This document shows positions 11,133-60,990 of a stretch of DNA of 64,000 bases, piece after piece. A program made the translations under genes and the position numbers. Source of the stretch: Mercurialis annua (taxonomy: Eukaryota; Streptophyta; Magnoliopsida; Malpighiales; Euphorbiaceae); NCBI RefSeq assembly GCF_937616625.2, contig NC_065577.1, positions 18,427,501 to 18,491,500 of the forward strand. Reading direction: 5' to 3'. A model generated the notes under the pieces. It was not told the DNA's origin. It did not search any database and worked only from the letters and a program-made list of their open reading frames with translations. Every line of letters starts with the position of its first letter. Position 1 is the first letter of the stretch.

Positions 11133-11249
11133 AACAATACCATCTTCGGTATCCTCGACATGGTCACTGTCACAACTACTAGGATGGTCATTAATACTCA
11201 TATCTAGGAATGGCTCAGACAGGTTCTGAGAATCTTCTTCGCCCGACAT
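11016..11249 (-). CDS. Chimeric 77-codon frame, copy 5
   Basis: Same fusion at the unit 5/6 junction; it has SEPFLDMS in place of SERDLDMS in the parental part. Open throughout. Confidence 0.3.
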   Translation of the reverse strand: MSGEEDSQNLSEPFLDMSINDHPSSCDSDHVEDTEDGIVGDLSHTFTTFTKQILTFPLFISSSQMFKILQTNKNVTK

Positions 11250-12817: not shown

Positions 12818-12934
12818 AACAATACCATCTTCGGTATCCTCGACATGGTCACTGTCACAACTACTAGGATGGTCATTAATACTCATATCTAGGTCTGGCT
12901 CAGACAGGTTCTGAGAATCTTCTTCGCCCGACAT
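12701..12934 (-). CDS. Chimeric 77-codon frame, copy 6
   Basis: Same fusion at the unit 6/7 junction; it has SEPDLDMS, one step from both the parental form and copy 5. Open throughout. Confidence 0.3.
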   Translation of the reverse strand: MSGEEDSQNLSEPDLDMSINDHPSSCDSDHVEDTEDGIVGDLSHTFTTFTKQILTFPLFISSSQMFKMLQTNKNVTK

Positions 12935-15607: not shown

Positions 15608-15627
15608 CAGTATTTTCCCAAATACTG
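15608..15627 (+). promoter_or_regulatory. Hairpin in the R-U5 part of the outer LTR
   Basis: CAGTATTT and AAATACTG form an 8-bp stem around a 4-nt loop, within ACTCACTCAG...ACTGACCCC. The same neighbourhood (CTCAGTATATCTGACCCC) occurs in the other three Ty3 elements. Possible role in RNA folding or 3'-end formation; inferred. Confidence 0.5.
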
Positions 15628-16142
15628 ACCCCTCACCTTTTGATTTCTTTCAGGTACTTAGTATGTGGACCTAGCTAGAGGCCAATTTTGAAGTCCAGAA
15701 GTCAGTTGTATATGTTTAGTTTCTGACTTCTGTGAATGCTGCAGTAGTGGTCCCGCATTGACAGAGTCGTAGTCTATACAGCAGTACATTTTGATTGTAC
15801 ATAATACTTGCTGTCTTGTTTATATGTTTTGATAGGCTACGTGTTTTATGTTTCATTCACGGCACCAGATGCCGGTGATATGTTGGATACACTAACTGAT
15901 GGATATAGTACCGCGAGGCTAGTTCGTACAGGGTACGGTAACTAGAGCCCGCGAGGTTTTGAACAGTTAGTGTAAATATTGGTTTATGTGTTATATATGT
16001 ATATTGGCTTCCGTTGTTTACTGTTGTTTGTTTATTATTTGCAAAAAATTAATAGTGATTTAAGGCTTGCTATGGGTTCCGGAGCTACCACTCCCGTTCC
16101 CTAGCGCCGGTTGCGGCTCAATATTTTGGGTCGTGACAATGT

Positions 16143-16154
16143 TGGTATCAGAGC
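16143..16154 (+). other. Primer binding site (initiator tRNA-Met) of the outer element
   Basis: TGGTATCAGAGC begins four bases after the LTR end, the usual sequence complementary to the 3' end of plant initiator tRNA-Met. Confidence 0.92.
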
Positions 16155-16250: not shown

Positions 16251-19200
16251 TTGTGAAACTCTGTCAGTAAGTAAACCTAGGAACTACTGCAGCAAGAGAG
16301 TCAAACCTTAGTTGTTTGCATTTGATTGATATGTGCATTATTAGTAAGTTCCATAAAGCGCGCTAAGCGAGATGGTTAAATGAAGATGTGATGAATATCT
16401 GTGTATATGAGCGGCTACGACAACTAAGTGTCTATTACTTGTGTAAGGGGTATACAGTGATTACGTATTTGCGAATTACGTACAGATTGATTGAATCTTA
16501 AATGTTTATATCACTTTATAAGTTGATATGGAAGTTAAGAGAAGAAAAAGGGTGTCACGACCCATTTTCATGAATCGCGACCGGCGCTAGGGTATGGGTA
16601 AAGTAGTACCAAAACCCGTAGCTAGCCTTTCAATTAACATACAAACACATAAACCTGCAGAAATCCAAAGCTCGGGGGCAACCGAGACTTCAGCCTAAAT
16701 CTAGCAGTTATAATATTCAACAGTTAATATAACATACTTATTCAATTCCGAGACTAAAATAGATTCATCATAAACCAATGTAACAATATAGCATGCCAAA
16801 GCAATATAACTAGTCGAACCAATTCGACAAAATAAATAATAATAATAATAAAGACGTCTAGTTACTACTGCGGTCTAAGAATAAAACAGTTTCACAGTTC
16901 TATTAAAATAAATGGAACCTCCGAGGAAAAGTAAATGCGGAGATCACCAGACTCTCTCAGATCATAACCCTGGGGAAAATTTGGAAAACAACGGGGTCAG
17001 ATATACTGAGATGAGTTCATACCACTATTTACATTTATTAAGTGGAAAACCTTTAAAACGTTTAAAACATTTAATAACAATATTACGGATAATAGTTGGA
17101 ACCCTAATCCACAATTCTAAATAATAAATATAATCCAATAGGTCTGGTCCCGAGAGCTGAGCTACACCGAGTTACAACTGACCACACTTATACCAGAGTC
17201 CCGAGAGCTGAGCTACACCGAGTTACTCTACCTGGTCCCGAGAGCTGTGCTCACACCGAGTTACCACATTTCCATATATACCTTACCCAGATCAATACCG
17301 GTGCGCACGCAGTCCTAATGATGCCCATTAGGTAGCATGTTCCAATTAGAAGCCATAATATAAAAATAGTTCGAAATATACGTACATTATATATTTAATA
17401 TTAAAATAACAATTTACTTAATAAAGCGGTAAATAGTAAATACAAACTCACTGCTTGCTAATCCACGTGAAAAACCGGCAAGCAACTAATCCTGGTTCGC
17501 CTCTGAAGCACGAACAGTAGACGGGTCTAGACAAATAAAATAATTATTAAAAACAGACCCTAACTCTAGAGAGTACTAGACACCACATAGGACTAGCACA
17601 AATAACATGTCGGAATAAACAATTCAAAGCACACACAAATAATAACCATTAGGTAATAAATCCTAATTAATATAAGTCTATTGAGTTCCCGCTTAAAAAT
17701 CCAATGTATAAATATTATTTAATAATTTTAAATAATAAATAATTTCCAAATAGTGGGTTAACCGAGTTATCATTAACTACTAAGCTAACCTCACTTGTCG
17801 GGTGACCCAAGTCTAACCCGACTCAAAACGTTTATCAAATATAAACCCGAGTTTATATTTATAAAATAATTCGATAAAATAATAATCCATTTTTAAAAGC
17901 AGAAATCAATAACTTAAATTTCAAGTAACCCAAGTTACAACCCAAAAATCTAACCATTTTAAGTTTATAAAAGTTTAGGGATTAAACTGTACTTTATCCA
18001 ATTTGATATTCGAAATCAAATTAATTTCTCGTTCTCAATTTACTAATTTAATATTTAAAACACAAGTCCAAAAGTTATCTAAAAGATAACTTAACTAAAT
18101 TAAGTTATAACAATGTTCAAGGACTAAATTGAAATTTACCCCATTTGGTCCGCTAAGCCAAAATCCCAAAATATTAATTTAATAATAATAATAATTATTA
18201 ATTTAATTACAAATAATTCAAATATTATTTTTAGAATTTAAAAGTAATATTATCAAATTGGCAAACTCTCAATTTCAATTGAAATCCCACAATAGAAATT
18301 TAAAGTCATTTAAATATAATAAGATTAGTATAAATTCCAAATCTAAAATAATAATGCTTAAGTAATTTAAAATCATAATTGATAATTGAGTTGCCAATTT
18401 AAAGGCCGGGACCAATTCCGTAGTTTAAATCAAAATTAATTTTAAAAGCAACAATTAATAACTTAAGGAATTAAAAGATTTTAGGCAAAACAATTCAAGG
18501 GCTAGGAAGGGCCTTTAGCCAAAACAAAACCCAAAGAGCCAAATACACAACGACATATCATCGTCTCATTCAACATGACAAACCCAATTATACAAACATT
18601 AAACAAAACTAACAGAGTTACGAAATCAAGGACTGAAACTCATGCTAACCAAATCAAGCTTTCAGAAACTCATCAATTCATTATCATACCATAATGAATC
18701 AAGAATAATAATCAAGAACAACATAGTGTCAACATTACATGACACCAACCAAGAGTTCCTCCTTGAGAAAATAAGAACGATGAATCAAACATCCGGGAAA
18801 AATGGAACATCATCAAACTTAGTTTAAACACATGACAACTAACATACCCAAAGTCTTAATATTATCAAACTAATCAAATTAAAGCAAAGGAATCGAACGA
18901 AATTTGGCAGCCGCAAAAGGAATAGAACAGAGGCAGAAAAATATCAAAGAATGATAAGACGGCGGCGACTAATACGGGATTGTTAGCGTACCGTGTTGCG
19001 AAATTAAAGTGTAGAATCGTAGAGAATTGAGTCTACAATCTCTGGGATTAAACGGTTCTGATTTCGATCTAGAAATAAAAGAGAACGATCCAAATTACGG
19101 AGGTATCGATTTATAAGCCAAAGCTGAAATTTAAAAGATGAAAACTTACGATGAACACCAAAGTTTGAGGGCGATGGCAACGTTATTTTCCAGGGATTCT

Positions 19201-26127: not shown

Positions 26128-26501
26128 TAAATCGTATCAGGCTTAAATGCCAAAATTTACCAAACAACATCATACCCAAGTATGAGTTTAGAAAACATCA
26201 TCAATAAAAGATTTCCCGAGAAATCAGAAGCAATTAAAATCACCCAAGTAAAATAAAGTCAACACGATAAGACACAGCAAGTAACATCCAAGTGAAATTA
26301 ATTGTCAGACATAGCATCAATACCAAATAAAGACTGACAGACATCACCTATAAGATGTAGGCTGAAAGTTTGAAAACAAATGATGACGTTTTAAAAGACA
26401 AGACACGAATCCTAATTCCGCAGTAGTTCATATGACACGACATCACTTATCATGCCAAAAACACATAACATCATGCATAAGGCCTTGGTTTGAAACCAAA
26501 T
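26128..26501 (-). promoter_or_regulatory. Conserved 5' leader of the non-autonomous element
   Basis: In sense it carries AACTACTGCGGAATTAGGATT, AAAACGTCATC and CACTTGGGTGAT-like motifs that recur in the leaders of the chromovirus (44205-44528) and the element at 60736. The primer-proximal TTGGTTTCAAACCAA can fold into a hairpin. A packaging or dimerisation role is inferred. Confidence 0.55.
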
Positions 26502-26517: not shown

Positions 26518-29500
26518 TGTCACGACCCATTTTCATGAATCGCGACCGGCGCTAGGGTATGGGTAAAGTAGTACCAAAACCCGTAGCTAGCCTTTCAATT
26601 AACATACAAACACATAAACCTGCAGAAATCCAAAGCTCGGGGGCAACCGAGACTTCAGCCTAAATCTAGCAGTTATAATATTCAACAGTTAATATAACAT
26701 ACTTATTCAATTCCGAGACTAAAATAGATTCATCATAAACCAATGTAACAATATAGCATGCCAAAGCAATATAACTAGTCGAACCAATTCGACAAAATAA
26801 ATAATAATAATAATAAAGACGTCTAGTTACTACTGCGGTCTAAGAATAAAACAGTTTCACAGTTGTACTAAAATAAATGGAACCTCCGAGGAAAAGTAAA
26901 TGCGGAGATCACCAGACTCTCTCAGATCATAACCCTAGGGAAAATTTGGAAAACAACGGGGTCAGATATACTGAGATGAGTTCATACCACTATTTACATT
27001 TATTAAGTGGAAAACCTTTAAAACGTTTAAAACATTTAATAACAATATTACGGATAATAGTTGGAACCCTAATCCACAATTCTAAATAATAAATATAATC
27101 CAATAGGTCTGGTCCCGAGAGCTGAGCTACACCGAGTTACAACTGACCACACTTATGCCAGAGTCCCGAGAGCTGAGCTACACCGAGTTACTCTACCTGG
27201 TCCCGAGAGCTGTGCTCACACCGAGTTACCACATTTCCATATATACCTTACCCAGATCAATACCGGTGCGCACGCAGTCCTAATGATGCCCATTAGGTAG
27301 CATGTTCCAATTAGAAGCCATAATATAAAAATAGTTCGAAATATACGTACATTATATATTTAATATTAAAATAACAATTTACTTAATAAAGCGGTAAATA
27401 GTAAATACAAACTCACTGCTTGCTAATCCACGTGAAAAACCGGCAAGCAACTAATCCTGGTTCGCCTCTGAAGCACGAACAGTAGACGGGTCTAGACAAA
27501 TAAAATAATTATTAAAAACAGACCCTAACTCTAGAGAGTACTAGACACCACATAGGACTAGCACAAATAACATGTCGGAATAAACAATCCAAAGCACACA
27601 CAAATAATACCCATTAGGTAATAAAGCCTAATTAATATAAGTCTATTGAGTTCCCGCTTAAAAATTCAATGTATAAATATTATTTAATAATTTTAAATAA
27701 TAAATAATTTCCAAATAGTGGGTTAACCGAGTTATCATTAACTACTAAGCTAACCTCACTTGTCGGGTGACCCAAGTCTAACCCGACTCAAAACGTTTAT
27801 CAAATATAAACCTGAGTTTATATTTATAAAATAATTCGATAAAATAATAATCCATTTTTAAAAGCAGAAATCAATAACTTAAATTTCAAGTAACTCAAGT
27901 TACAACCCAAAAATCTAACCATTTTAAGTTTATAAAAGTTTAGGGATTAAACTGTACTTTATCCAATTTGATATTCGAAATCAAATTAATTTCTCGTTCT
28001 CAATTTACTAATTTAATATTTCAAACACAAGTCCAAAAGTTATCTAAAAGATAACTTAACTAAATTAAGTTATAACAATGTTCAAGGACTAAATTGAAAT
28101 TTACCCCATTTGGTCCGCTAAGCCAAAATCCCAAAATATTAATTTAATAATAATAATAATTATTAATTTAATTACAAATAATTCAAATATTATTTTTAGA
28201 ATTTAAAAGTAATATTATCAAATTGGCAAACTCTCAATTTCAATTGAAATCCCACAATAGAAATTTAAAGTCATTTAAATATAATAAGATTAGTATAAAT
28301 TTCAAATCTAAAATAATAATGCTTAAGTAATTTAAAATCATAATTGATAATTGAGTTGCCAATTTAAAGGCCGGGACCAATTCCGTAGTTTAAATCAAAA
28401 TTAATTTTAAAAGCAACAATTAATAACTTAAGGAATTAAAAGATTTTAGGCAAAACAATTCAAGGGCTAGGAAGGGCCTTTAGCCAAAACAAAACCCAAA
28501 GAGCCAAATACACAACGACATATCATCGTCTCATTCAACATGACAAACCCAATTATACAAACATTAAACAAAACTAACAGAGTTACGAAATCAAGGACTG
28601 AAACTCATGCTAACCAAATCAAGCTTTCAGAAACTCATCAATTCATTATCATACCATAATGAATCAAGAATAATAATCAAGAACAACATAGTGTCAACAT
28701 TATATGACACCAACCTAGAGTTCCTCCTTGAGAAAATAAGAACGATGAATCAAAATCTGGGAAAAATGGAACATCATCAAACTTAGTTTAAACACATGAC
28801 AACTAACATACCCAAAGTCTTAATATTATCAAACTAATCAAATTAAAGCAAAGGAATCGAACGAAACTTGGCAGCCGCAAAAGGAATAGAACAGAGGCAG
28901 AAAAATATCAAAGAATGATAAGACGGCGGCGACTAATACGGGATTGTTAGCGTACCGTGTTGCGAAATTAAAGTGTAAAATCGTAGAGAATTGAGTCTAC
29001 AATCTCTGGGATTAAACGGTTCTGATTTCGATCTAGAAATAAAAGAGAACGATCCAAATTACGGAGGTATCGATTTATAAGCCAAAGCTTAAATTTAAAA
29101 GATGAAAACTTACGATGAACACCAAAGTTTGAGGGCGGTGGCAACGTTATTTTCCATGGATTCTTGAGAGAATTTTGACGGCTAAGTTTTGAATAGATGA
29201 GTACTGAATGAGATTAGGTTTTGAATCGATATAAATAGGGTGAACGTAAATAACAGGTGCAGCTACTGGTTTCAGATGGTTCTTAAATTGAAACTTAAAA
29301 GGACAAGATGATGGGCTTGCTATGTTAATAAGGACATGGGCTTAATTATGTTTTAAAGAAAAAGGATGGAACACGTGAATGCATGGAATTATGCATGATC
29401 ATATTTCATTTTAAATTCTCTTTTCCTTTTGTTTTTTTTCTTTTAAGATTTAATAATACCAGCCCAATATAAATCGAATCACGACCGAATCAACGAGCGA

Positions 29501-33655: not shown

Positions 33656-36167
33656 TGTAATACCCCAAAATATTTAATTAGCTAATTGGAGCACGTGTCC
33701 AGTTTTGATTCACCAGAGTGGCGATATCAGAAGAATTTCTGAAAAGATAAAGTAAATAAGTTTCAAGTAGGTCGGTTTTGGGAAATTAACTATGAGAAAA
33801 TTTAAGGTTATATTTCAATTCTAAATTTAGAATTAGAATTAAAAGGAAAAATGTCAAGAAAAGTCCAAAATAAAGTACATGGACCAAAGTGGTAATTTAG
33901 CCACTTTGTGTCGAAAATGGAAATTTTGGATTTTGACGGAAAAGTATTAATATCGAGCTTTGTATTATTTATCGGATATAAATAATACGTAAAGGTAATA
34001 ATTTAAGAAGTTATTGATTTAGTTATGGATTAAATTGAATAAAAGAAAAGTTTAAAGGATAAATGATAAGAAACAAAAAGAACAAGGACCAAAGTGGCAT
34101 TTTTGCCATGAAATATAAGAAGAAGAAGATATGAATCAGAGAAGAATCGAGAGAGTGAGGAAAATAACGCCAATCGATTACGTTTCGCCGCCGTTTCGCC
34201 GTCCGACGTCCGATTCGAGCAATTCAAGCGGCGATCTCTTCAGAATTGAAAGCCCTACCGTTTCCGAGCGTCAAATCAAGGTAAATATCTCGAGAATTGG
34301 TGCAAAAATCGGATTTTGTTGGCTGTTTTGAGTTTTATAATCTATTGGATTGAAATTGATGTTTTGGACGTTATTATAGCGTTTTTGAGGAAACGGGAGT
34401 ACGGGTTTTGTGTAGTGGAAAGGTTAGCACGTCGGGAAAGCCAAAAAAGCCCCGGAAAACGTCTTTCCGGGGGCTGTGCACGTGGTACACGACCGTGTAC
34501 CACGGGTGCACGAATGTGTACTAGAAGTACACGAACGTGCACCTAGCAAGGTCCACGAACGTGTACCTGAAGTACACGAACGTGCACTTTCATGGTGCAC
34601 GAACGTGTACTGGAAGTACACGAACGCGTACCCCTGAGGTGCACGAACGTGTACTTGGTTACACGATCGTGCACCCACCAAAATGCACGCCCGTGCACCC
34701 CGACTCGTATCCATGTGTATGTGATGAATATTTGATGTAGAAATTCAACGTTTTGAGTAATTTGACTCTAAAGGATGGATTTCGGACTTTGAGAATCATT
34801 AATCTTGAGATTAGCTCGACGTTTTAGATAACTAATAGTAATGGAAAACGTCAAGGACGTTAAGCGATTCTCAATTATGAGAAATGGTATTCGCGAAGTC
34901 GACTATACGATTAAAGTTATCGAATACGTAAATAAGTTTAAAATGAAATTAAACCCTAAAACTTAGAAGTATTATGTGAGTAAAATTACTAGTTTCACGT
35001 CTGACTATTAAACGATTTATCAGACGTGTCAGAGCAGAGAGGTTAGTAGACATGGGTTAGCGAGGGCATATCATTTCATCGACCACATTATTGATTGGAT
35101 TGCGGTCACTGTGAGTTGCACTTTACTTTCGTGTATTATATATATAAAGTCATTTTATATTGATATGTATACTGTTTTTACGCATCGCATGTTAGATGAT
35201 TTGATTAAATATTATATGTTTCTATCAAATGTATATACGAGAACTAGTATGCGATCCGAAGAAACTAGCTACCTATTGGGTGTCAATAGGCTGTGTGATC
35301 ACCAGTATCGAGTCAGTCTAGTATGTTTGCATTTGAGAAATGACTTGACACAGCTGGGAGCTGTTGATGAATATGAAATTTATGATTGGGTTATGATTTC
35401 GATACGAGAGTAAACTCGGCTACGGTGTAGCCTGGAAGTCCCCGTATCTAGTGGCTGGGCCACCAGCGAGTTGGACTCGCAATTGATATTTACGATTGGG
35501 TTAAATGACAATGATTATTCGAGAAATGTGTCGCATGCTAGGATATTAGTTTCGTACGGATCAAATACATGTTTATATGTTTTATATTAATATTTTCTTG
35601 AGATGCGATGCTATGTTTTTATATTAATACTGTTAGTAAATGACAACTCACTCAGTATTTTCCCAAATACTGACCCCTCACCTTTTGATGTCTTTCAGGT
35701 ACTTAGTATGTGGACCTAGCTAGAGGCCAATTTTGAAGTCCAGAAGTCAGTTGTATATGTTTAGTTTCTGACTTCTGTGAATGCTGCAGTAGTGGTCCCG
35801 CGTTGACAGAGTCGTAGTCTAGACAGCAGTACATTTTGATTGTACATAATACTTGCTGTCTTGTTTATATGTTTTGATAGGCTACGTGTTTTATGTTTCA
35901 TTCACGGCACCAGATGCCGGTGATATGTTGGATACACTAACTGATGGATATAGTACCGCGAGGCTAGTTCGTACAGGGTACGGTAACTAGAGCCCGGGAG
36001 GTTTTGAACAGTTAGTGTAAATATTGGTTTATGTGTTATATATGTATATTGGCTTCCGTTGTTTACTGTTGTTTGTTTATTATTTGCGAAAAATTAATAG
36101 TGATTTAAGGCTTGCTACGGGTTCCGGAGCTACCACTCCCGTTCCCTAGCGCCGGTTGCGGCTCAAT
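33656..36167 (+). repeat. 3' LTR of the outer element, main part
   Basis: Near-identical to 13611-16122. It is cut after TCAAT at 36163-36167 by the chromovirus and resumes at 47498 for the last 21 bp (TCAATATTTTGGGTCGTGACA counted from the duplicated TCAAT). It contains the palindrome cluster (34476-34700) and the TGCTGCAGTAGT motif (35782-35793). Confidence 0.92.
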
Positions 36168-39119
36168 TGTCACGACCCATTTTCATGAATCGCGACCGGC
36201 GCTAGGGTATGGGTAATGTAGTACCGAAACCCGTAGCTAGCCTTTCATATAAAGCATAAACACATAAACCTGCAGAAAACCAATGCTCGGGGGCAACCGA
36301 GACTTCAGCCTAAACTAGCAGTTATAATAATCAACAGTTAATATAACATGCTTATTCAATTCTGATTATAAAATAGATTTATCATAAACCGATATAAATA
36401 ATAAAACATGCCAAAGCAAAATAACCAGTCGAACCAATCCGACAAAATAAATAATAATAACAAGGACGTCTAGTTACTACTGCGGTCTAAGAATAAAACA
36501 ATTTTACAATTTTATTAAAATAGAAGGAACCTCCGAGGAAAAGTAAATGCGGAGATCACCAGACTCTCTCAGATAATAACCCTGGGGAAAATTGGGAAAA
36601 CAACGGGGTCAGATATACTGAGATGAGTTCATACCACTATCTACATTTATTAAGTGGAAAAACCTTTAAAAACGTTTAAAACATTTAATAACGATATTAC
36701 GGATAATAGTTGGAACCCTAATCCACAATTCTAAATAATAATCATAATCCAATAGGTCTGGTCCCGAGAGCTGAGCTACACCGAGTTACCACTGACCACA
36801 CTTATACCAGAGTCCCGAGAGCTGAGCTACACCGAGTTACTCTACCTGGTCCCGAGAGCTATGCTCACACCGAGTTACCACATTTCCATAAATACCTTAC
36901 CCAGATCAATACCGGTGCGCACGCAGTCCTAATGATGCCCATTAGGTAGCACGTTCCAACTAAGAGCCATAATATAAAAACAGTTCGAAATATACGTACA
37001 GTATATATATTTAATATTAAAATAACAATTTACTTAATAAAGCGGTAAATAGTAAATGTAAACTCACTGCTTGCTAATCCACGTGAAATACCGGCAAGCA
37101 ACTAACTCTGGTTCGCCTCAGAAGCACGAACAGAAGACGAGTCTAGACAAATAAAATAATTATTAAAATCAGACCCTAACTCTAAGGAGTACTAGACACC
37201 ACATAAGACTAACACAATTAACACGTAGTAAATAAACAATCCAAAATAACACAAATATATACAAAAGGTAATAAAGCCCAAATAATATAAGTCTATTGAG
37301 TTCCCGCTTAAATCCAATTTATAAATATTATTTAAAAACTTTAAATAATAAATAATTTCCAAATAGTGGGTTAGCCGAGTTATCATAAACTACCAAGCTA
37401 ACCTCACTTGTCGAGTGACCCAAGTCTAACCCGACTCAAAACAATTATCAAATATAAACCCAAGTTTATATTTATAAAACAATTTAACAAAAATAATAAT
37501 CCAATTTAAAAGCGGAACTCAATAACTTCAATATCAAGTAACCCAAGTTACGAACCAAAAACTTAGTTGTATAAGTCAAATAAAGATTCAGGGACCAAAT
37601 TGTATTTTAACCAAGTAGGGACTAAATGGTACTTTTTCCAATTAGGGGCTAAATTGCACTTTAGTCAATTTGATAACCGAAATCAATTTAATTGCTTTTG
37701 TTTATAATTAAAACCAACAATAAAGTTATTAACCAAAAATCCACTTAATTAAGTTATAAAATGAGCTTAGGGGCTAAATTGTAATTTAGCCATTTTTGAC
37801 AAAACGACATTTGAAGGCAAATATAATTACCCGAGTAATTTTATTAACTTAATTTATAAATAATTATCGCTTTACAAAATATCAATTACGATTTATAACG
37901 AATTTGAAAGTTACCATCAATCAAAGTTAAAATTAAAACTAAGGGAATTCATTTGATTAAGTTAAACTAAAATGATGATCAAGTTAGCTATTTAACCATC
38001 ATTCTCAAATTCAAAATAGTAACAGACCCGCCATGCTCAACCAAACCATTTCACCATTTTTGATTCTGAAATTAAGCTCACATCTCAATCCTCATCACCA
38101 AAGCAACTTAATTTATACAAGAACAACACACTAATCACCTAATACAAACCCATAAACATTCAACACCAAGAATCATGAAACGGCAGAAACTTCACGACAC
38201 CAAGAACACCCAATTTACTACGGATCCGAGAATCAATGAAGAAACAATTCAATCTAAAAGCTTGATCTAATAACTACTAATCATGCCAAGGGATCCATAA
38301 TCAAAAGACAAGCAAAAACATAACCAAAAGAGAAAGGAAATGGTTCGGCAGAAACGTAAACTCAAGAACAGTATATAGCAAACAGAAAACGGAAACCGTA
38401 CGGCGATTGAAACGAGATCGGCGGCGTACCGTTCAGCGAAAATGAGGTAGGGAAACGTAGATACGTGAGTCTAGATCGTCTGGAATCAAACGGTTCTGAT
38501 TTCGATTAAGAAACGAGCAAGAACGAATCAGAAAACCGAAAGACGTTTCAAGAGCAAACTGAATTCAAATGAATCAAGGGTACTTACTGAACAGCGATCT
38601 TTGGTGGATGATATCGGCTTCGTTTCTCAGCGAAAGAACAAACCAAAAACGTCAAGGGCTACCTTGCAGCGTGATCTAGGGTTTTTGTGAAGAAATCGAC
38701 TTTAAATAACGAAGGGAAGTGAGCCGAAAATGTGATCGAACAGGGCCGGATGGAAGGGTCAAGGGCCTGCTGCCATTCCCGAACGGAAAGGCCAAAATTT
38801 GGCCTGATCCCGTTCGGGAAAAGGCCTGGTCCCGAACGGGACCAGTGCAAATTTTGCACAGTCCCGTACGGGACAGGCCCAGTCCCGTACGGGACCTTAC
38901 GGGATTTCATCAGGTCTCTTACGAGACCTGGTTTATCCCTTGGTTCAACCATTTGGTTGAACCAAGACCCAAAGGAGAATATATTTTTTTTTTTAAAAAA
39001 CCGAACCGAGGATGAATCGAACCAAAATTAATTTACGAAACTTCAAATACCCCACAAAATACATCCGGAACCACGTCGGAAATTACAAAAATAAATTTAA
39101 AATTTTACGGGATATTACA
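36168..39119 (-). repeat. 3' LTR of the chromovirus (2952 bp)
   Basis: Plus-strand ends TGTCACGACCC and GGGATATTACA. It has the conserved box (37368-37437), the leader-complementary motif (36476-36485) and a palindrome cluster (38790-38963). Short frames through the palindromes at 38659-39031 are not genes. Confidence 0.95.
38790..38963. repeat. Cluster of perfect and near-perfect palindromes in the chromovirus U3
   Basis: In order: GGCCAAA/TTTGGCC (38790), TCCCG/CGGGA (38808), GGTCCCG/CGGGACC (38828), TGCAAATTTTGCA (38846), perfect GTCCCGTACGGGAC twice (38861 and 38882, 21 bp apart), GGTCTC/GAGACC (38913), and a 10-bp stem GGTTCAACCA at 38942-38963. The copy in the other LTR is at 47167-47340. 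Confidence 0.92.
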
Positions 39120-39120
39120 T

Positions 39121-42200: not shown

Positions 42201-44204
42201 ACAACCCTTGCCTAACATCCGCTTTGCCTTGATGGCGGAAATCAGATTCTTAGGTGTCTCTGCCTTTTCTCCCTGAAAGGAAAAAGGTAGACCACCTGGA
42301 ATCCTGAACTCGACTGACTTCTCTCGACAGTCAATAGAAGCATAATGGCGTGACAACCAGTCCATCCCCAAGATAACATCAAAAGAAAGAACGTCAAGTA
42401 CAATCAAATCAGCACATAATTCTCTACCCTGAATAACCACAGGACAAGAAGGATAGACGACGTCCACTACTACACCTTCAGACATAGGTGTAGACACAGC
42501 TAGAGGTTCATTCAAAACAGATGGTGCTCTACCCAATTTCCCAGCAAAACAAGTAGAAACAAACGAATGGGTCGCACCCGCATCAAATAATACCAAAGCA
42601 TCAGTAAAAGAAATCGGAATGGTACCTTGCACCACAGCATTTGATGCACGCGCATCCTGAGGAGTAAGTGCGAACACTCTGGCCTGACCCTGCGGCTGCT
42701 GCTGCGAACTCTGTCCAGTACCATAACCGTTGGAACCTCTACCGCCGTTACCACGGCCACCAAAACCTCTGCCACCAGAACCACGGCCCCGCTGGCCACC
42801 AAAAGATGCTGCAGGTTGAGAGTACCCTACAGACTGTGTAAACGCAGGTCTCTGCTGCTGATAAGATGACTGCGCCACACTGGAGTTAGACATCTGCTGC
42901 CCAGATGTCGGACACTCCCTAGAAAAATGACCCGGCTGGCCACAAGTGAAACAACCTCCAGGAGCTAACTGACACTGTCCATAGTGCCTGCGTCTGTAAT
43001 TCTGGCAGAACGGAATGTTCGATCCACCACTGTACCCGCGTCCTGAACCACGGTTGCTCCCACTGCTACTGGAACTGTACGGAGCACTCCTGGCACTATG
43101 CCTCCCTTTGTTGTGAGTCCGTCGACTCCCCCTGTTGGCCTGAGAAGAGCCACTGTAGTAGTTCCCACTACCATGCTGCACTGGGGCCTGCTGCCCCCCA
43201 CTAGGAACGTCACTCTTTCCCTTCTGATTCTGGAAAGGGTCAGAGATCGTCCCAAACTGAACCATCGAGTTCTCCATCCGCCGCGCACTATCCACTAACC
43301 GGGCAAACTCCATGTTTGTCCCTATCAGCAAAGGGAGAAACTCCGAGCCTAAACCCCTAACATAACGGTCGTTCACTCGCTCTTGATCACCCTGTAGATC
43401 TGTAGCAAACCGCCCCAAACGTACAAACTCAGTAGTGTAGTCTGTCACTGATCTATCCCCCTTCTTCAAAGTGAGCAGCTTTTCTCTGAAACTCTCAGTA
43501 ACAGAGAAGGGTAGATAGTAACCTCTGAACCTGGTCACAAAATCAGCCCAAGGCAAAGTATCCATAACTGGCCTGATGTTATCGCGATACCAATCCTTAG
43601 CTGGACCCTTCAGCGACATTTCCACAAGCATCACTGATTGACGATCAGACGCTTGAATCCTCTGACTGTTGTACTCAAATTCCTCCAAAAAGTCAAGAGC
43701 ATCCCCAGTACCATCAAAAGAAGTCGGATTCAACTTCAAGTAGGTCATCACCAACTCTCTGTCTGTTGGAACATGACCGACACCAGCAATTCCACCAATA
43801 CCAGCTACAGCACCAACCTGAGGTTGCTGTTGCTGCGCTAACTGACCCAGTATATTACACTGATTCTGCAGTAGAGCCTGATTGTTCTGCATCTCGACAA
43901 CGCCAGCCAAGAAAGTAGTGAAGTCGAACGCTTGCAAATTTGGTGCTTGCTGCACCCCTGGTGCCTGCTGCACATTCGGTGCCTGAACACCTGCTGCACC
44001 GCGCCCTCTAGCTCCACCTCTACCAGCACCAGCTCCTCTGCCTCTACCAGCACCTCTACCTCTGCCAGCACCTCCACCTCGACCACGTCCAGCATTTGCC
44101 TGAACTGGTGGTGCGTTCTGATCGACTTCCATGGAAATCGCATCATCAGCCACAGCTTCTTGCTCTGCCGCAGCACGAGCACGAGTACGAATAACATTGT
44201 CCAT
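39237..44204 (-). CDS. Gag-Pol polyprotein of a Tekay-like chromovirus (1655 residues)
   Basis: A single uninterrupted frame from ATG 44204. Order: an Arg/Gly-rich stretch (about 38-72), a Gln-rich linker, the Ty3-type gag domain (about 150-330), a CCHC zinc knuckle [14 protein letters not shown] (418-431), a second Gly/Arg-rich linker, protease with DAGATHSF (Asp541; Ala where Ser or Thr is usual), reverse transcriptase with FIDD (Asp877, Asp878), RNase H with YCDAS (Asp1024) and FTDHKS, and integrase with a zinc finger ending CLTC (1278-1281) and catalytic Asp1311, Asp1372 and Glu1408 (35 residues between the last two). A GPY-type module and a C-terminal chromo-like domain (about 1605-1653, [18 protein letters not shown]) follow. 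It would form virus-like particles, copy the RNA in the cytoplasm and insert the cDNA; the chromo-like domain is thought to steer integration to heterochromatin. All catalytic residues are present. Frames on the other strand, such as the Ser/Thr-rich one at 43932, are shadows. Confidence 0.95.
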
Positions 44205-44528
44205 ATCCTAAGATTGAACAACAACAATTTAAATAACAGATATTTCATACTCAAGTATGAACAAAACAAGCAACATATTGGATTTCCCAAGAAATCAACA
44301 GCAATAAAATGTTCACCCAAGTGAAATAGCATTAACAATTAAAAGCATCAAATCAACAAATAATGACTGACTCGACGCAATCCTATTGGTGTAGGCAGAA
44401 AGTTTTAAAATCAAAAGATGACGTTTTTAAAGACATGACAGAATCCTATATCCGCAGTAGTTCCTAAGACACAACCAAATTTAACAGAGTAAACACATAG
44501 CAAGCAATGGCCTTGGTTTGAAACCAAA
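44205..44528 (-). promoter_or_regulatory. 5' leader of the chromovirus
   Basis: In sense it contains a hairpin TTGGTTTCAAACCAA next to the primer site, GGAACTACTGCGGA (44465-44451), AACGTCATCTTTTGATTTT, CACTTGGGTGA and CTCAAGTATGA-like motifs, most of which recur in the leaders at 26128-26501 and 60752-60990. Such conservation in front of the gag start suggests packaging or translation-control signals. Confidence 0.6.
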
Positions 44529-44540
44529 GCTCTGATACCA
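44529..44540 (-). other. Primer binding site of the chromovirus
   Basis: Minus-strand TGGTATCAGAGC, separated from the 5' LTR end (44545) by AACT; complementary to initiator tRNA-Met. Confidence 0.95.
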
Positions 44541-44544
44541 AGTT

Positions 44545-47497
44545 TGTCACGACCCATTTTCATGAATCGCGACCGGCGCTAGGGTATGGGTAATGTAGTA
44601 CCGAAACCCGTAGCTAGCCTTTCATATAAAGCATAAACACATAAACCTGCAGAAAACCAATGCTCGGGGGCAACCGAGACTTCAGCCTAAACTAGCAGTT
44701 ATAATAATCAACAGTTAATATAACATGCTTATTCAATTCTGATTATAAAATAGATTTATCATAAACCGATATAAATAATAAAACATGCCAAAGCAAAATA
44801 ACCAGTCGAACCAATCCGACAAAATAAATAATAATAACAAGGACGTCTAGTTACTACTGCGGTCTAAGAATAAAACAATTTTACAATTTTATTAAAATAG
44901 AAGGAACCTCCGAGGAAAAGTAAATGCGGAGATCACCAGACTCTCTCAGATAATAACCCTGGGGAAAATTGGGAAAACAACGGGGTCAGATATACTGAGA
45001 TGAGTTCATACCACTATCTACATTTATTAAGTGGAAAAACCTTTAAAAACGTTTAAAACATTTAATAACGATATTACGGATAATAGTTGGAACCCTAATC
45101 CACAATTCTAAATAATAATCATAATCCAATAGGTCTGGTCCCGAGAGCTGAGCTACACCGAGTTACCACTGACCACACTTATACCAGAGTCCCGAGAGCT
45201 GAGCTACACCGAGTTACTCTACCTGGTCCCGAGAGCTATGCTCACACCGAGTTACCACATTTCCATAAATACCTTACCCAGATCAATACCGGTGCGCACG
45301 CAGTCCTAATGATGCCCATTAGGTAGCACGTTCCAACTAAGAGCCATAATATAAAAACAGTTCGAAATATACGTACAGTATATATATTTAATATTAAAAT
45401 AACAATTTACTTAATAAAGCGGTAAATAGTAAATATAAACTCACTGCTTGCTAATCCACGTGAAATACCGGCAAGCAACTAACTCTGGTTCGCCTCAGAA
45501 GCACGAACAGAAGACGAGTCTAGACAAATAAAATAATTATTAAAATCAGACCCTAACTCTAAGGAGTACTAGACACCACATAAGACTAACACAATTAACA
45601 CGTAGTAAATAAACAATCCAAAATAACACAAATATATACAAAAGGTAATAAAGCCCAAATAATATAAGTCTATTGAGTTCCCGCTTAAATCCAATTTATA
45701 AATATTATTTAAAAACTTTAAATAATAAATAATTTCCAAATAGTGGGTTAGCCGAGTTATCATAAACTACCAAGCTAACCTCACTTGTCGAGTGACCCAA
45801 GTCTAACCCGACTCAAAACAATTATCAAATATAAACCCAAGTTTATATTTATAAAACAATTTAACAAAAATAATAATCCAATTTAAAAGCGGAACTCAAT
45901 AACTTCAATATCAAGTAACCCAAGTTACGAACCAAAAACTTAGTTGTATAAGTCAAATAAAGATTCAGGGACCAAATTGTATTTTAACCAAGTAGGGACT
46001 AAATGGTACTTTTTCCAATTAGGGGCTAAATTGCACTTTAGTCAATTTGATAACCGAAATCAATTTAATTGCTTTTGTTTATAATTAAAACCAACAATAA
46101 AGTTATTAACCAAAAATCCACTTAATTAAGTTATAAAATGAGCTTAGGGGCTAAATTGTAATTTAGCCATTTTTGACAAAACGACATTTGAAGGCAAATA
46201 TAATTACCCGAGTAATTTTATTAACTTAATTTATAAATAATTATCGCTTTACAAAATATCAATTACGATTTATAACGAATTTGAAAGTTACCATCAATCA
46301 AAGTTAAAATTAAAACTAAGGGAATTCATTTGATTAAGTTAAACTAAAATGATGATCAAGTTAGCTATTTAACCATCATTCTCAAATTCAAAATAGTAAC
46401 AGACCCGCCATGCTCAACCAAACCATTTCACCATTTTTGATTCTGAAATTAAGCTCACATCTCAATCCTCATCACCAAAGCAACTTAATTTATACAAGAA
46501 CAACACACTAATCACCTAATACAAACCCATAAACATTCAACACCAAGAATCATGAAACGGCAGAAACTTCACGACACCAAGAACACCCAATTTACTACGG
46601 ATCCGAGAATCAATGAAGAAACAATTCAATCTAAAAGCTTGATCTAATAACTACTAATCATGCCAAGGGATCCATAATCAAAAGACAAGCAAAAACATAA
46701 CCAAAAGAGAAAGGAAATGGTTCGGCAGAAACGTAAACTCAAGAACAGTATATAGCAAACAGAAAACGGAAACCGTACGGCGATTGAAACGAGATCGGCG
46801 GCGTACCGTTCAGCGAAAATGAGGTAGGGAAACGTAGATACGTGAGTCTAGATCGTCTGGAATCAAACGGTTCTGATTTCGATTAAGAAACGAGCAAGAA
46901 CGAATCAGAAAACCGAAAGACGTTTCAAGAGCAAACTGAATTCAAATGAATCAAGGGTACTTACTGAACAGCGATCTTTGGTGGATGATATCGGCTTCGT
47001 TTCTCAGCGAAAGAACAAACCAAAAACGTCAAGGGCTACCTTGCAGCGTGATCTAGGGTTTTTGTGAAGAAATCGACTTTAAATAACGAAGGGAAGTGAG
47101 CCGAAAATGTGATCGAACAGGGCCGGATGGAAGGGTCAAGGGCCTGCTGCCATTCCCGAACGGAAAGGCCAAAATTTGGCCTGATCCCGTTCGGGAAAAG
47201 GCCTGGTCCCGAACGGGACCAGTGCAAATTTTGCACAGTCCCGTACGGGACAGGCCCAGTCCCGTACGGGACCTTACGGGATTTCATCAGGTCTCTTACG
47301 AGACCTGGTTTATCCCTTGGTTCAACCATTTGGTTGAACCAAGACCCAAAGGAGAATATATTTTTTTTTTTAAAAAAACCGAACCGAGGATGAATCGAAC
47401 CAAAATTAATTTACGAAACTTCAAATACCCCACAAAATACATCCGGAACCACGTCGGAAATTACAAAAATAAATTTAAAATTTTACGGGATATTACA
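44545..47497 (-). repeat. 5' LTR of the chromovirus (2953 bp)
   Basis: Virtually identical to 36168-39119; I noticed a G/A difference near 45434 and differences in the T/A homopolymers near 47360. Box at 45745-45814, leader-complementary motif at 44853-44862. The frame at 47096-47596 reads out of the LTR into array DNA and is not a gene. Confidence 0.95.
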
Positions 47498-47518
47498 TCA
47501 ATATTTTGGGTCGTGACA

Positions 47519-48414
47519 ATCACGTACCGATCAGAGCGAAAGCCTAAAATGAGCATATCTCGGAGTCACCTAGCACAACCACTCCGAGCACCCTGAACAA
47601 ATCTGTCAGAACGTACCCCGACATTCCAGACAAACTTCTGCACAGACAAAGAGAATGAGGTCAGACCTGTCGACCCAGACAAAGAGAAACGAAGACATAG
47701 TATAAAAGGCAAAAGGAAAGTAGGTGAAAAGGTTAATTCTCTTTTTCTCTCAACTCTTAAATCCCTTTCACTTCTTATACTTTCTCTCACTAAACAATCA
47801 CTAATTAGACCGTCGGAGTGGTTTGCCGGAATCCCCTTCCGGCATCCTTCTTACGGTTGTGTTGTGCCTTATAGGTACGGCCTTGAAGCGTCTACCAGAT
47901 TGGAGCGTCGCCTGAAGTCACAAGTTATCAGTAACGTTTAAACGTTTGGATTGGTTTCATAACGTTTTAATCGTTTGGTTTAAGTCACTAAAAAGGTGAA
48001 ACGTTTGGATTTATTTCTTAACGTTTGTAAACCCTTGACTTAAATTGCTAATGAGGTGACAGGTTTGGATTTGATTCGTAACGTTTGTAAACGGATGACT
48101 TAAATTGCTAAAAAGGTGAAACGTGTGGATTTGTTTCGCAAAGTTTTAAACGATTGGATTGGTTTCGTATAGTTTTAAATGTTTGGCTTAAATCGCTAAA
48201 AACGTGAAACATTTGGATTTTTTTCCTTATCGTTTGACTTAAATTGCTAAAAAGGGAAAACGTTTGGATTTATTTCGTAATGTTTTAAACGTATTGATTT
48301 ATTTTGTAACGTTTTTATTGGTTTGTAACATTTTAAACATTTGGCTTGAACTGATAAAAAGGGTAAACGTTAGGATTTGTTTAGTAAAGGTTGTAAACGT
48401 ATGGCTTAAATCGC
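47519..48414. repeat. Second half of array unit 7, after the insertion
   Basis: 47519-47523 is the right-hand ATCAC target duplication. The LTR copy begun at 13429-13610 continues 47524-47930 (182+407 = 589 bp), then minisatellite follows to 48414. Here the sequence reads on as TCGCTAAAAC instead of jumping to AACAATACC, so this is the right end of the array and the original flank of the element. Confidence 0.9.
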
Positions 48415-51400
48415 TAAAACGGTGAAACGTTTGGATTTGTTTCGTGACATTTTAAACGTCTTGATTAGTTTCGTAACGTTTTAAATATTTGACTTAAATC
48501 GCTAAAAAGGGGAAATGTTCAGATTTTTTTCGTTACATTTTTAAACGTTATGCTTAAATTTCTAAAAAGGTGAAACGTTTGGATTTGTTTCGTAACGTTT
48601 TAAGAGTTTGGCTTAATTCGTTAAAAAGGTGATACGTTTGGATTTGTTTCGTAACATTTTGAACGTTTGGATTGGTTACATAACGTTTTAAATGTTTGGT
48701 TTAAATTGCTAAAAAGGTGAAATGTTTGGATTTGTTCCGTAACATTTTAAATGTTTGTATTGGTTTCGCAACGTTTTATATGTTTGGCTTAAATCACTAA
48801 AAGGGAGAAACATTTTGATTTGCTTCGTAAAGTTTGTAAATGTTTGGCTTAATTCGCTAAGGGTGAAACGTTCGTATTTGTTTCGTAAAGTTTGTAAACG
48901 TTTGGCTTAAATCGCTAAAAAGGTGAAACGTTAGGATTTTTTCGTAACGTTTAAAATGTTTGGCTTAAATTGCAAAAAAGGTGAAATGTTTGAATTTGTT
49001 TCGTAACTTTTTAAACGTTTGGATTGGTTTTGTAACGTTTTGCTTAAATCGATAAAAAGGTGAAACATTTTGATTTGTGTCCTAAAGTTTGTAAACATTT
49101 GGCTTAAATCACTAAAAAGGTTAAACGTTTGGATTTCTTTCGTAGCATTTTCAACGTTTGGGTTGAATTCGTAACGTTTTAAATGTTTGGCATAAATCGC
49201 TAAAAGGGTGAAACTTTTGGATTTGTTTCGTAACGGTTGAAAATGTTAGGCATAAATTGCTAAAATGGTGAAACGTTTGGATTTGTTTCGTAACCTTTTA
49301 AACTTTTGGGTTGGTTTCATAACGTTTCAATGTTTGGTTTAAATCGCTTAAAAGATGAAATGTTTGGATTTGTTTTGTAAAAAGTTTTAAACGTTTGGCT
49401 TAAATCGCTGAAAAGGTGAAAGTTCGGATTTGTTTTGTATTGTTTTAAACGTTTTGATTCGTTTCGTAACATTTTAAATGTTCGGCTTAAATCGCTAAAA
49501 AGGTGAAACGTTTGGATTTGTTTAGTAACGTTTTTAAACATTTGGCTTAAACATCTAAATAGAGAAAATGTTTGGAATTTTTTTGTAAAATTTTAAACGT
49601 TTGGCTTCAATCGCTAAAAAGGTGAAACGTTATGATTTGTTTCATAACGTTTTGAATGTTTGGATTGGTTTCATAATGTTTTAAATGTTTGACTTAATTC
49701 AATAAAAAGGTGAAACGTTTGGCTTAAATCGCTAAAAAGATGAATTGTTTGGATTTGTTTCGTAACGTTATCAATGTTTGGCTTAAATCGCTAAAAATGG
49801 GAAACGTTTGGATTTGTTTTATAATGTTAGTAGACGCTTGGGTTAAATCGCTAAAAAAGGTGAAACGTTTGGATTTATTTCGTAACGTTTTAAACATTTG
49901 GATTTGTTTCGTAACATTTTAAATGTTTGGCTTAAATCGCTAAAAAGGTGAAACTTTTGGATTTGTTTCGTACGGCTTAAATCGCTGAAAATGTGAAACA
50001 GTTGGGTTTGTTTCGTAACGGTTTAGACGTTTGGCTTAAATTGCTAAAAAGGGGAAACATGTGGATTTTTTTCGTAACGTTTGTAAACATTTAGCTTAAA
50101 TCGCTAAAAAGGAGAAACATTTGGAATTGTTTCGCAATATTTTCAACTTGTAGATTGGTTTCGTAACGTTTAAAACATTGGCTTAAATCGCTAAAAAAGT
50201 TAAAGGTTTGGATTTTTTCATAATGTTTTAAACGTTTGGCTTAAATCGCTAAAAAGGTGAAACGTTAGGATTTCGTTCGTAACGTTTTAAATGTTTGGCT
50301 TAAAAAGCTTTAAAGGTGAAACGTTAGGATTTGTTTTGCTACGTTTTAAATGTTTAGCTTAAATTGATAAAAATGTGAAACGCTAGGATTTGTTTCATAA
50401 GGTTTTAAACGTTTGGCTTAAATCTCTAAAAAAGAAGACGTTAGGATTTGTTTCCTAACGTTTTAAACGTTTGGCTTAAATCGCCAAAAAGGTAAAACAT
50501 TAGGATTTGTTTCGTAACGTCTTAAACATTCAGATTGGTTTCGTTACGTCTTAAACGTTGGGATTGGTTTCGTAACATTTTAAACGTTTGGCTTAAATCG
50601 CTAAAAAGAAGAAACGTTTGGATTTGTATCATAACTTTTTATACGTTTGCATTTGTTTCGTAACATTTTAAATGTTTGGCTTCAATAGCTTTAAAGGGGA
50701 AACGTTTGGATTTGTTATAAACGTTAGACTTAATTTGCTAAAAAGGCGAAACATTTGGATTATTTTCGTTACGTTTGTAAGCGTTTGGCTTAGATCGCTA
50801 AAAAAGTGACACGTTTGGATTTGTTTCGTATGGTTAGAAAAATTTAGATTGGTTTCATAATGTATTAAATGTTTGGCTTATATTGCTAGAAACGGGGAAC
50901 ATTTAAATTTGTTTTGTAACGCTTGTAAACGTTTGGACTAAATAGTTAAAAAGATGAAAGGTTTGGATTTGTTTCATAACGTTTGGATTGGTTTTGTAAC
51001 GTTTTTAATGTTTGGCTTCAATCATTAACGAGGTGAAATGTTTGGATTTGTTTCGTAACGTTTGTAAACGTTTGGCTTAAATTGCTAAAAAGGTGAAACA
51101 TTTGGATTGGTTTCGTAATGTTTAAACGTTTGGAGTGGTTTCATAACGTTTTAGACTTTTGGTTTAAATCACTAAAAAGGTGAAACATTTAGATTTATTT
51201 CTTAACGTTTGTAAACCATTGGCTTAAATTGCTAAGAAGGCGACAGGTTTGGATTTGTTTCGTAACGTTTGTAAACGGTTGGCTTAAATTGCTAAAAGTT
51301 TAGACGTGTGGATTTGATTCGTAACGTATTAAATGATTGGATTGGTTTCGTAACGTTTTAAACGTTTGGCTTAAATCGCTAAAAAGGTTGGATTTTTTCC

Positions 51401-57400: not shown

Positions 57401-57490
57401 CGTTTTAAAAGTTTGGCTTAATTCGCTAAAAAGGTGATACATTTGGATTTGTTTCGTAATGTTTTGAACGTTTGGATTGGTCACATAACG
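48415..57490. repeat. Minisatellite of alternating 30- and 29-bp sub-repeats, about 9 kb
   Basis: Sub-repeat A is GGCTTAAATCGCTAAAAAGG plus TGAAACGTTT; sub-repeat B is GGATTTGTTTCGTAACGTTT plus TAAACGTTT. A+B gives 59/60-bp units, and A+B+B (the second B with GGATTGG) gives 88-bp units, mixed along the array with many substitutions. Well over a hundred A copies are present. The same DNA forms the last 485 bp of each array unit from 3910 on. Because 60 is a multiple of 3, repeated peptide frames (up to 159 codons, 54984-55463, minus) appear; I do not regard them as genes. Confidence 0.93.
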
Positions 57491-58505: not shown

Positions 58506-60735
58506 TCGGGCAAAACTGTAAGTTTATCTTTATACAATTAATAATAGTAATATGATAATAAAATAATGGACAGTATTGTAATTTTATGTTTATATAATAA
58601 TACTCTAGTAAGAGCATTTAAAGGAGATTAGTATATTTGAGATACAAGCCCAACGAACTACAAAAAAAAATGGAAAAAGGAGCCGTCATCTTAGAACTTT
58701 TATTTACTGTTTAACACACTGATGCGTATAAACCTAATTAGTCAGAATTGGTTTAAGTCTTAACTGTAAGGGAAGGACAATGGTAGAGCTTCTAAAGGTA
58801 TTATTTTTATTTTTATTTGTTTTATGATAATGCAATTTAGTTACCTGGAAGTGTGAAAGGCATATAAAAATCATGTTTCTAGTATACAGTAATTTGAATC
58901 TGATTTTGTATTTTAATAAAAGAAATTAATCTTGATTTCTATTAGTGAAAATAATATTAAAAGTTGATGCTAAAGAAACAAACCCAACTCTTGATTTCAC
59001 GCTAATCTATACGAATGTATCTTTTGTTTTTATTTTTCTCTCCATTCGTTATATGCTCAGAATTTTTTGTCTTTAAATTCTAAAAATATCACATTAATAT
59101 TACTTAAACTTCTAAAGTTTGAAAAGATGACATCTTAACCAATAAAAATATAATAGCAGTAATTTACTGTTAATTGAAATATTTGATAAATTAAATTATA
59201 TTTGAGTAATATTCTTAGAAAATAATAATAGTAGATAATAATTTTATTTCATTATTAATGAGTATGAGAATTATGAATATTTCTAGGAGACATTGACAAA
59301 GTAGATTATTAAGTACCAACATTTGATAATTAATTTATTGGGCAATTGAAGTAAGTATAGTTAATTATATTTATGTATATTAATTGATTATTAAATGTGA
59401 ATTATTTTACTTATGTTAGTTAAGTAATTGTCGGTAACAATAGATTACTTTTATTTAAAGATATTGGGTTCCGTTTTTAATTAATAATTATTATTTTTCC
59501 AAATTATTATTTTTAGGAATTTTAAACTATGGTTTATATTTTTGATAAAATATTTGGATCGGGTTAGACTTGGGTCGCCCGACATGTGAGGTAGCTTGGT
59601 AGTTATCGGTATAACTCGGCTAACCCGCTATTTGGAAATTTATTTATTTTATTATTTAGATAATATTTTTTCGAAACGGGCTCAAAAGCGAGAACTCAAC
59701 AGACTTGTATTATTTTGAGCATTATAACTTATTTGAGTATTGTGCTTACTATGTGTGATTTTACTTAATTTGTTGTTTGTGCTAGTCCTACGTGGTGTCT
59801 AGTACTCTCTAGAATTAGGGTCTATTTTAACCATTTTTTATATTGTCTAAACTCGTCGACTGTTCGTGCTTCGCAGACGAATCAGGATTAGTTGCTTGCC
59901 AGGTTATCACTTGGATTAACAAGAAGTGAGTTTATATTTACTATTTACCACTTTATTAAGTAAATTGTATTTTCGCTATAAAAAACTGTTTGCAGCTTTC
60001 GAAATGTTTTCGAAAATCATTATGGATCTAGATTGAAACGAGCTACTCGATGGGCATCATCGAGACTGAATGCGCACCGGTAATGATACTTGGTATTGAG
60101 GTATGGTTTGAGATACGTCTCGCCTTAGTGAGGGCGCCGGTGGTAGATTCGTCTCCTGGGACTCACTCGTTTATATATGTTGAGTGACGGTCGGGGATCG
60201 GTTATGGAGATACGTCTCACCAACACGACACTTGGATATTAGTTATATTTGTGGTTTAGGGTTTCAATACTCATCCGTAATGTTATATATTTATATAAAC
60301 TGAGTATTATTGTTTTTAATGGTTTTCCACTTAGTAAATGTAAATAGTAGTATGAACTCATCTCAGTATATCTGACCCCGTTGTTTTCCCAAATTTTTTC
60401 AGGGTTATGATTATGAGCGATTCAGCTGGTCTCCAAATTCTTATTCCTCGGAGGTTTTACTTATTTTAAATAAGTTATTAAACTGATTTTATTCCTAGAC
60501 CGCAGTAGTAATTAGAAGTCTTACTTGTCTAATAATTGTTATTAGATTTATTCTATTGGATTATACGTTGTTTATATAAACTGCTAGACTAGGTTGGAGT
60601 CTCGCTTGCCCCCGAGCAGTGGTTTTCTTGAAGGTTTATATGTCGAGTGGTTGTCCGCAAGGTTTGCTATGAGTTTTGGTACAACCATACCCATTCTCTA
60701 GCGCCGGTCACGATTCATGAAAATGGGTCGTGACA
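57491..60735 (+). repeat. 5' LTR of the partial element (3245 bp)
   Basis: Starts TGTAATACCCCGTGTTTTTC and ends GGGTCGTGACA. A TATA-like TATATAAAC is at 60292-60300, which would put the RNA start near 60325. Downstream are CTCATCTCAGTATATCTGAC and the motif CCGCAGTAGT (60500-60509). Box at 59557-59628. The pair LTR is outside the window, so the end is set by the primer site. Confidence 0.85.
58470..58505. repeat. AAT trinucleotide microsatellite
   Basis: About eleven (AAT) triplets within the U3 of the LTR. Confidence 0.9.
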
Positions 60736-60739: not shown

Positions 60740-60751
60740 TGGTATCAGAGC
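60740..60751 (+). other. Primer binding site of the partial element
   Basis: TGGTATCAGAGC after spacer AACT; initiator tRNA-Met type. It is followed by TTGGTT...AACCAA able to form a hairpin. Confidence 0.93.
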
Positions 60752-60990
60752 TTTGGTTATGAAAACCAAGCCCTTTTTTCCATGTTATGTGTTTACTGTC
60801 TTATGACATGTTAAGTTGTCATTTTGACATAGGAACTACTGCGGAATTAGGATTCAAGTCCTGTCTTTTAAAACGTCATCTTTTGATTTTTAAAACTTTC
60901 TACATAAACCTATAGGAATGTTGTGTGTCGGTCATGTTAAAACTGGCGTTATGTTATAATGATTGTTTTCACTTGGGTGATTACTTGTTG
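60752..60990 (+). promoter_or_regulatory. Conserved 5' leader of the partial element
   Basis: Contains GGAACTACTGCGGAATTAGG, AAAACGTCATCTTTTGATTT and CACTTGGGTGAT, in the same order as in the chromovirus and in the non-autonomous element at 26128-26501. Confidence 0.6.

Follow-up and report, generated by a model that had tools for sequence, protein, structure and literature searches.

The window, by which we mean the whole stretch of 64,000 nucleotides that was analysed, contains four LTR elements considered here. The chromovirus lies on the minus strand, with LTRs at 44545-47498 and 36168-39120 and an open reading frame at 39237-44204. This reading frame contains gag, PR, RT, RNase H, integrase and chromodomain in the order of chromoviruses (Ty3/gypsy); the matches to the chromodomain (23.9 bits, cut-off 25.1) and to the integrase core (26.9 bits, cut-off 32.6) were under the Pfam cut-offs. 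Tekay, as clade name of the window elements, is a label taken from an earlier note on this DNA. A non-autonomous relative has its 5' LTR end at 26518 and its sites on the minus strand. Further, a partial relative (LTR end at 60735) and an outer element (5' LTR end at 16138) lie on the plus strand. The left part of the window (2705-13719) is a tandem array of approximately 1685-nt units. The right part (47519-57432) is an array whose repeats are spaced by 147/148 and 59/60 nt; it has sequence in common with the left one. An insertion at approximately 19397-22126 lies in the 3' LTR of the non-autonomous element and contains tandem repeats at 20332-21348.

Complementary LTR and leader sites in the window

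The earlier note had proposed that a short segment of the 5' LTR pairs with a segment of the leader, forming a long-range RNA duplex around the primer site. We found all eight motif sites at the coordinates and on the strands it gave, and every LTR/leader pair was exactly complementary. In the chromovirus (family 1), the 5' LTR site CCGCAGTAGT is at 44853..44862 and the leader site ACTACTGCGG, its exact complement, at 44452..44461, both on the minus strand. Between them, on the same strand, lies the primer binding site TGGTATCAGAGC (44529..44540), which we take to be of the tRNA-iMet type. The non-autonomous element carries the LTR site at 26829..26838 (minus strand), the leader site at 26418..26427 (minus strand) and the primer site at 26513-26502; in the partial element these are at 60500..60509 (plus strand), 60835..60844 (plus strand) and 60740-60751. 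In the outer element (family 2), the 5' LTR site TGCTGCAGTAGT at 15737..15748 and the leader site ACTACTGCAGCA at 16283..16294 form a 12-nt exact complement on the plus strand, with the primer site at 16143..16154. Thus the 12-nt primer sites, which read TGGTATCAGAGC in each case, are bracketed by the paired sites in all four elements, as proposed, and this is the arrangement expected of a long-range LTR-leader interaction. The outer element does differ from the others on both sides, and the earlier note was right that it alone gives independent support within the window.

We assessed how often such matches occur by chance using Markov-shuffled 600-nt LTR ends and 300-nt leaders, with 40 shuffles per window element. 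A complement of at least 10 nt was present in 5/40 shuffles for the chromovirus, 4/40 for the non-autonomous element, 6/40 for the partial element and 5/40 for the outer element. For at least 12 nt the respective values were 0/40, 0/40, 1/40 and 1/40. In the chromovirus, a longer, 12-nt AT-rich complement exists elsewhere. The match within any one element is only modestly unusual and is weak evidence. Therefore the evidence has to come from conserved position and joint changes across families, and we sampled elements by LTR end and primer site, not by the motif.

Conservation and joint changes across families

All comparative data came from one genome, the window's own (451 Mb). The search key, LTR end plus primer site, avoided selection by motif and was present at 3312 exact places. 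From 100 matches listed we took 36 elements, namely the first 30 (L021-L050) and six hand-picked for spacers that are mostly AAG (L051-L056). We added L057 and L058 (unusual spacers, from another list), seven of the eight matches from 200 kb of sequence next to the window, and the four window elements; the eighth match had no such LTR end and was excluded. Four of these 49 elements were dropped. In L027 and L036 the LTR end is of another type and the leader site is absent, which suggests another lineage. The other two are disrupted: L046 is without the usual leader, and the leader of L056 is inserted or rearranged, because a second primer-site sequence stands approximately 210 nt beyond the first. 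This left 45 elements in 13 families. The LTR site was located by its likeness to a fixed 8-mer, blind to the element's own leader. For five LTR sites (those of L041, L033 and L058, and two in the adjoining 200 kb) and for four leader sites, the position was assigned manually from the context; the leader site of L058 was corrected later, and the LTR site of L044 was set separately. In the sample, the LTR site lies 209-656 nt before the LTR end and the leader site 69-147 nt after it; L051 has a leader site at 179 and no LTR partner.

The two 10-nt cores were well conserved. Their identity between families was 0.87 and 0.89 (11 representatives), compared with 0.30 and 0.28 for neighbouring 10-nt stretches. 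By hand count, all eight core pairs were kept in 36 of the 45 elements, one of them with G:U; L044 keeps all eight given one bulged base. At least one core pair was broken in eight of the 45, namely L021, L041, L047, L048, L051 and L058 together with two elements of the adjoining 200 kb.

We observed joint changes at several pairs. Pair 1 changed on both sides in two separate clades, family 3 and L052/L055 in family 4, the latter change being confined to a small subclade, with the older letters retained in its sisters. In L047/L048, close relatives of L052/L055, the leader side alone has changed at pair 1, leaving a mismatch; the two subclades seem to show a stepwise change, the leader alone in one and both sides in the other. 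Pair 5 changed jointly in L024 and L033, and pair 9 is C:G in five clades and T:A in nine. Counted by clade (without L051, and with L044 included after removal of its extra base), pair 1 was paired in 11/14 and unpaired in 3/14, while pairs 5 and 9 were paired in 14/14. Pairing was thus kept through two-sided change at pairs 1, 5 and 9, less clearly so in one reduced tree test given below. Pair 11, scored in 44 elements, was G:C in 24, T:A in three and unpaired in 17, and none of its changes fell on a shared branch; at pair 12 pairing was mostly absent. In families 2, 6, 7 and 8 the complementarity is longer, with 11-12 pairs, and family 6 has T:A for G:C at pair 11.

For mapping of the changes we built a tree without the two sites. 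On shared branches there were four double changes in pairs 1-10, while 0.65 were expected (P = 0.0002); one-sided changes numbered 9 to 12. Without L044 there were again four double changes (P = 0.0016), and without L041 as well there were three (P = 0.0042). When L021 and one more decayed copy were also left out, five rows in all, two remained (P = 0.069). In the register test (43 elements, 13 distinct rows, as in the shuffle tests), 93.1% of cells paired in register and 8.6-64.7% when one side was slid by 1-3 nt. The covariation score was matched by 4/2000 shuffles and the per cent paired by 5/2000; the number of two-sided pairs was reached in 273/2000 and the number of pair types in 1735/2000. 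Among 14 representatives, an element's own LTR-leader duplex beat permuted ones (P = 0.002). The own leader was the best partner for only 2/14 LTRs, because the core is common to many families.

Further, we counted letters at exact matches in the whole genome. At pair 1, in one geometry, the LTR/leader letters were T/A in 753 copies, A/T in 243, A/A in 86 and T/T in 25. The partners match in 996/1107 copies (90%, against approximately 60% if they were independent) and are mismatched in 111; the 86 A/A copies mean that this end pair can be lost. At pair 9, in a second geometry, we counted C/G 481, T/A 161, C/A 9 and T/G 6, so that 642/657 copies match (97.7%, against approximately 62%). Five among 100 T/A matches listed have, by eye, a longer, chromovirus-type span. 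Since the copies share ancestry, these counts are associations and not independent trials.

The excess of paired over unpaired changes that the earlier note called for was therefore found, both in the 13 families and in the genome-wide counts, with the reduced tree test and the 273/2000 shuffles as caveats. One could still suppose that a few families carry inherited letters and that no pairing exists. A 10-nt match is indeed not rare in a single element, and shared ancestry applies to the genome-wide association too; however, the joint changes arose in separate clades, and the slid and shuffled controls speak against this view, as does the genome-wide association. We consider chance and ancestry an extremely improbable explanation. 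A different view is that the paired sites are inverted copies of a single site bound by a protein of the host or of the element, so that joint change follows the preference of the protein and not pairing. The nearly invariant cores are what a binding site would give. The genome-wide counts alone do not separate this from RNA pairing, because at pair 9 wobble (6) is about as frequent as mismatch (9), and RNA pairing is not singled out. However, complementarity that reaches 11-12 pairs in four families, including the T:A at pair 11, and the L052/L055 change in a small subclade among sisters with older letters argue against protein preference, which we regard as unlikely. What the sequences sampled show are the sites, their conservation between families and the joint changes that preserve pairing.

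Folding of the 5' region and neighbouring features

We folded the region from -700 of the LTR (-800 where the site is further away) to +220 of the leader, approximately 920 nt. The helix had a mean probability above 0.5 in 25/43 elements and was not favoured in 18/43, with families 5 and 9 wholly among the latter. In the window, the values were 0.94 for the chromovirus, 0.15 for the non-autonomous element, 0.04 for the partial element and 1.0 for the outer element. With longer putative leaders, whose 5' ends were guessed, they were approximately 0.96 (1162 nt), 0.27, 0.94 and 0.77-1.0, respectively. Thus folding, one of the checks suggested by the earlier note, favoured the helix in most elements but not in the non-autonomous and partial elements of the window when the ~920-nt region was used.

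The LTR site is also present in the 3' LTRs of the chromovirus (36476..36485, minus strand), the non-autonomous element (16864..16873, minus strand) and the outer element (35782..35793, plus strand), so that all three elements of the window that have two LTRs carry it in both. The leader site might then pair with the 3'-end LTR site of the same or a partner RNA to form a circle or a dimer, like CYC5:CYC3 of Ty1, in which, according to an excerpt of PMC4974528, a 5' segment pairs with a 3' segment. Such pairing would require the site to be within R, and the folds, in which local pairing alone was offered, favour the local helix in 25/43 elements. We find the circle or dimer quite unlikely.

Several other helices were evaluated. 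An extension on the outer flank (LTR UCUUA / leader UAGGA) was rejected, since shuffled flanks were as good in 106/200 cases and the comparison with flanks of other families gave P = 0.79. For the inner flank (leader UAGG / LTR CUAG/UCCU) shuffles were as good in 1/200, but the comparison with other families' flanks gave P = 0.18. A second, AT-rich helix (LTR ACGTTTTTAAAG at approximately -509 / leader CTTTAAAAACGT) is T5/A5 in the chromovirus and T4/A4 in the non-autonomous element; it was rejected because neither the partial element nor family 4 shows it, and because L028 combines T4 with A5. For the outer element we considered an inner helix of 11 bp (15757-15767 / 16258-16268); by eye it was also present in L021 and ambiguous in the other five elements of family 2, and we do not claim it. 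Pairing of the site with initiator tRNA came to approximately five bases by eye and was dropped. A search of Rfam with 44100-45500 gave no match up to E = 1.

In 11/13 families we also noted a hairpin that precedes the LTR site by 84-123 nt; it reads UCAG-stem-CUGA and then CCC. In the window its 5' copies are at 44983-45004 and 26959-26980 (minus strand) and at 60357-60378 and 15602-15631 (plus strand); the 3' LTR copies are at 36606-36627 and 16994-17015 (minus strand) and at 35647-35676 (plus strand). The stems differ yet still pair (UCAGUAUAU/AUAUACUGA, UCAGAAAUA/UAUUUCUGA, UCAGCU/AGCUGA), and the hairpin could act at the RNA or the DNA level. In most family representatives examined it is followed by CTGAC, a pyrimidine-rich stretch and CAGG, e.g. 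at approximately 44960-44990 (minus strand) and 15625-15665 (plus strand). This looks like a branch point and a 3' splice site inside the LTR. Another hairpin lies further upstream, at 45305-45323 (minus strand) and at the corresponding positions of the partial and outer LTRs, and its stem changes between the window elements (CCTAATG-GGCAT-CATTAGG, CTCGATG-GGCAT-CATCGAG, CCTATTG-GGTGT-CAATAGG). TATA-like strings were found upstream of the LTR site in 15/16 elements examined, where such AT-rich strings are common; TATA and AATAAA strings cannot place the transcript, because they are too common in an AT-rich LTR.

In plant pararetroviruses, ribosomes shunt across a folded leader region. The helix might aid translation here in the same way. 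Judged from the first three elements of each family, 11/12 families that have an LTR partner carry a stop codon 1-5 nt before the stem, but just 3/12 had a start codon in frame with it. The short reading frame ending just before the stem, which is the signature of a shunt, is thus lacking in most families, and we hold this role to be very improbable.

Proposed helix, its possible role and comparison with known systems

Since both sites changed together in many families, the RNA of these elements probably folds back on itself, and the joint changes support the long-range duplex around the primer site that had been proposed. Judged from comparison of sequences, we think it fairly probable that a conserved helix between 5' LTR and leader closes a primer-site domain in these plant chromoviruses. 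In this model, 8-12 nt of the 5' LTR, at a site that would lie in the transcribed part, pair with 8-12 nt of the leader, and the helix presumably forms in the cell. It would close a loop of several hundred nucleotides that contains the primer binding site. By likeness to Ty1, the helix may keep this region in the fold required to start reverse transcription, and perhaps it also serves packaging of genomic RNA. A broader proposal is that three features make up one conserved 5' RNA domain in these plant elements: the UCAG...CUGA-CCC hairpin, the 3'-splice-like CAGG that follows it, and the long-range helix. This domain would act as a switch that either lets the RNA serve as message or keeps it for packaging and reverse transcription, in parallel to the leader switch of retroviruses. 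We put this forward as a speculative and rather doubtful extension.

LTR elements form a large part of many plant genomes. The earlier note knew of no description of such a helix for this clade, and our keyword searches of one literature collection listed no description of long-range RNA structure in leaders of plant chromoviruses or other plant Ty3/gypsy elements. Excerpts of a 2013 survey state that LTR models could not be made for plant Metaviridae because their LTRs vary in length (PMC3601003). A search of viral contigs with the RT protein gave no confirmed relative outside the host. The LTR-end/primer pattern had no matches in viral contigs and six in bacterial and archaeal records, all without the TAGCGCC LTR-end block and taken as chance. 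A helix backed by joint changes is a concrete landmark for testing the folding, packaging and priming of genomic RNA.

The earlier note likened the pairing to U5-leader pairings of retroviruses. This is apt, but the R-leader pairing of Ty1, as given in excerpts of PMC4974528, is closer. There, nt 1-7 of the 5' R pair with nt 264-270, past the primer site, as part of a pseudoknot; the pairing is needed for an efficient start of reverse transcription, while attempts to show a packaging role did not succeed. As in the elements described here, a short 5' LTR segment and a segment downstream of the primer site enclose that site, at a distance of approximately 260 nt in Ty1. Unlike here, Ty1 is a yeast copia element, its pairing starts from nt 1 and was shown by mutation. 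In the plant chromoviruses the distance is approximately 300 to 760 nt, the site lies inside a long LTR and the support is comparative.

In MMTV, the LRI-III'/IV helix of approximately 11 pairs holds the packaging region, and mutants proved that its sequence is exchangeable if pairing is kept (PMC11449360, in part). These are the points of likeness to the proposed helix, but the revised model in the same source puts both strands in U5, approximately 195 nt apart, and not in LTR and leader on either flank. In HIV-1, U5 pairs with a later leader segment (U5:AUG), which was first proposed from sequence comparison (excerpt of PMC7599994). Here too an LTR segment has its proposed partner further on in the leader; in HIV-1, however, the partner is at the start of gag, whereas the chromovirus leader site (44452) is well before the gag ATG (44204). 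Among chromoviruses, Tf1/Sushi and Tcn1 self-prime, according to parts of PMC3601003 and PMC6317226. There too a 5' part of the transcript pairs with the primer-site region, but this pairing creates the primer itself, whereas here the paired sites are away from a tRNA-type primer site. Because they lie outside TGGTATCAGAGC, self-priming does not fit the window elements. A helix backed by joint changes suggests that pairing between LTR and leader around the primer site is common to copia elements, plant gypsy elements and retroviruses.
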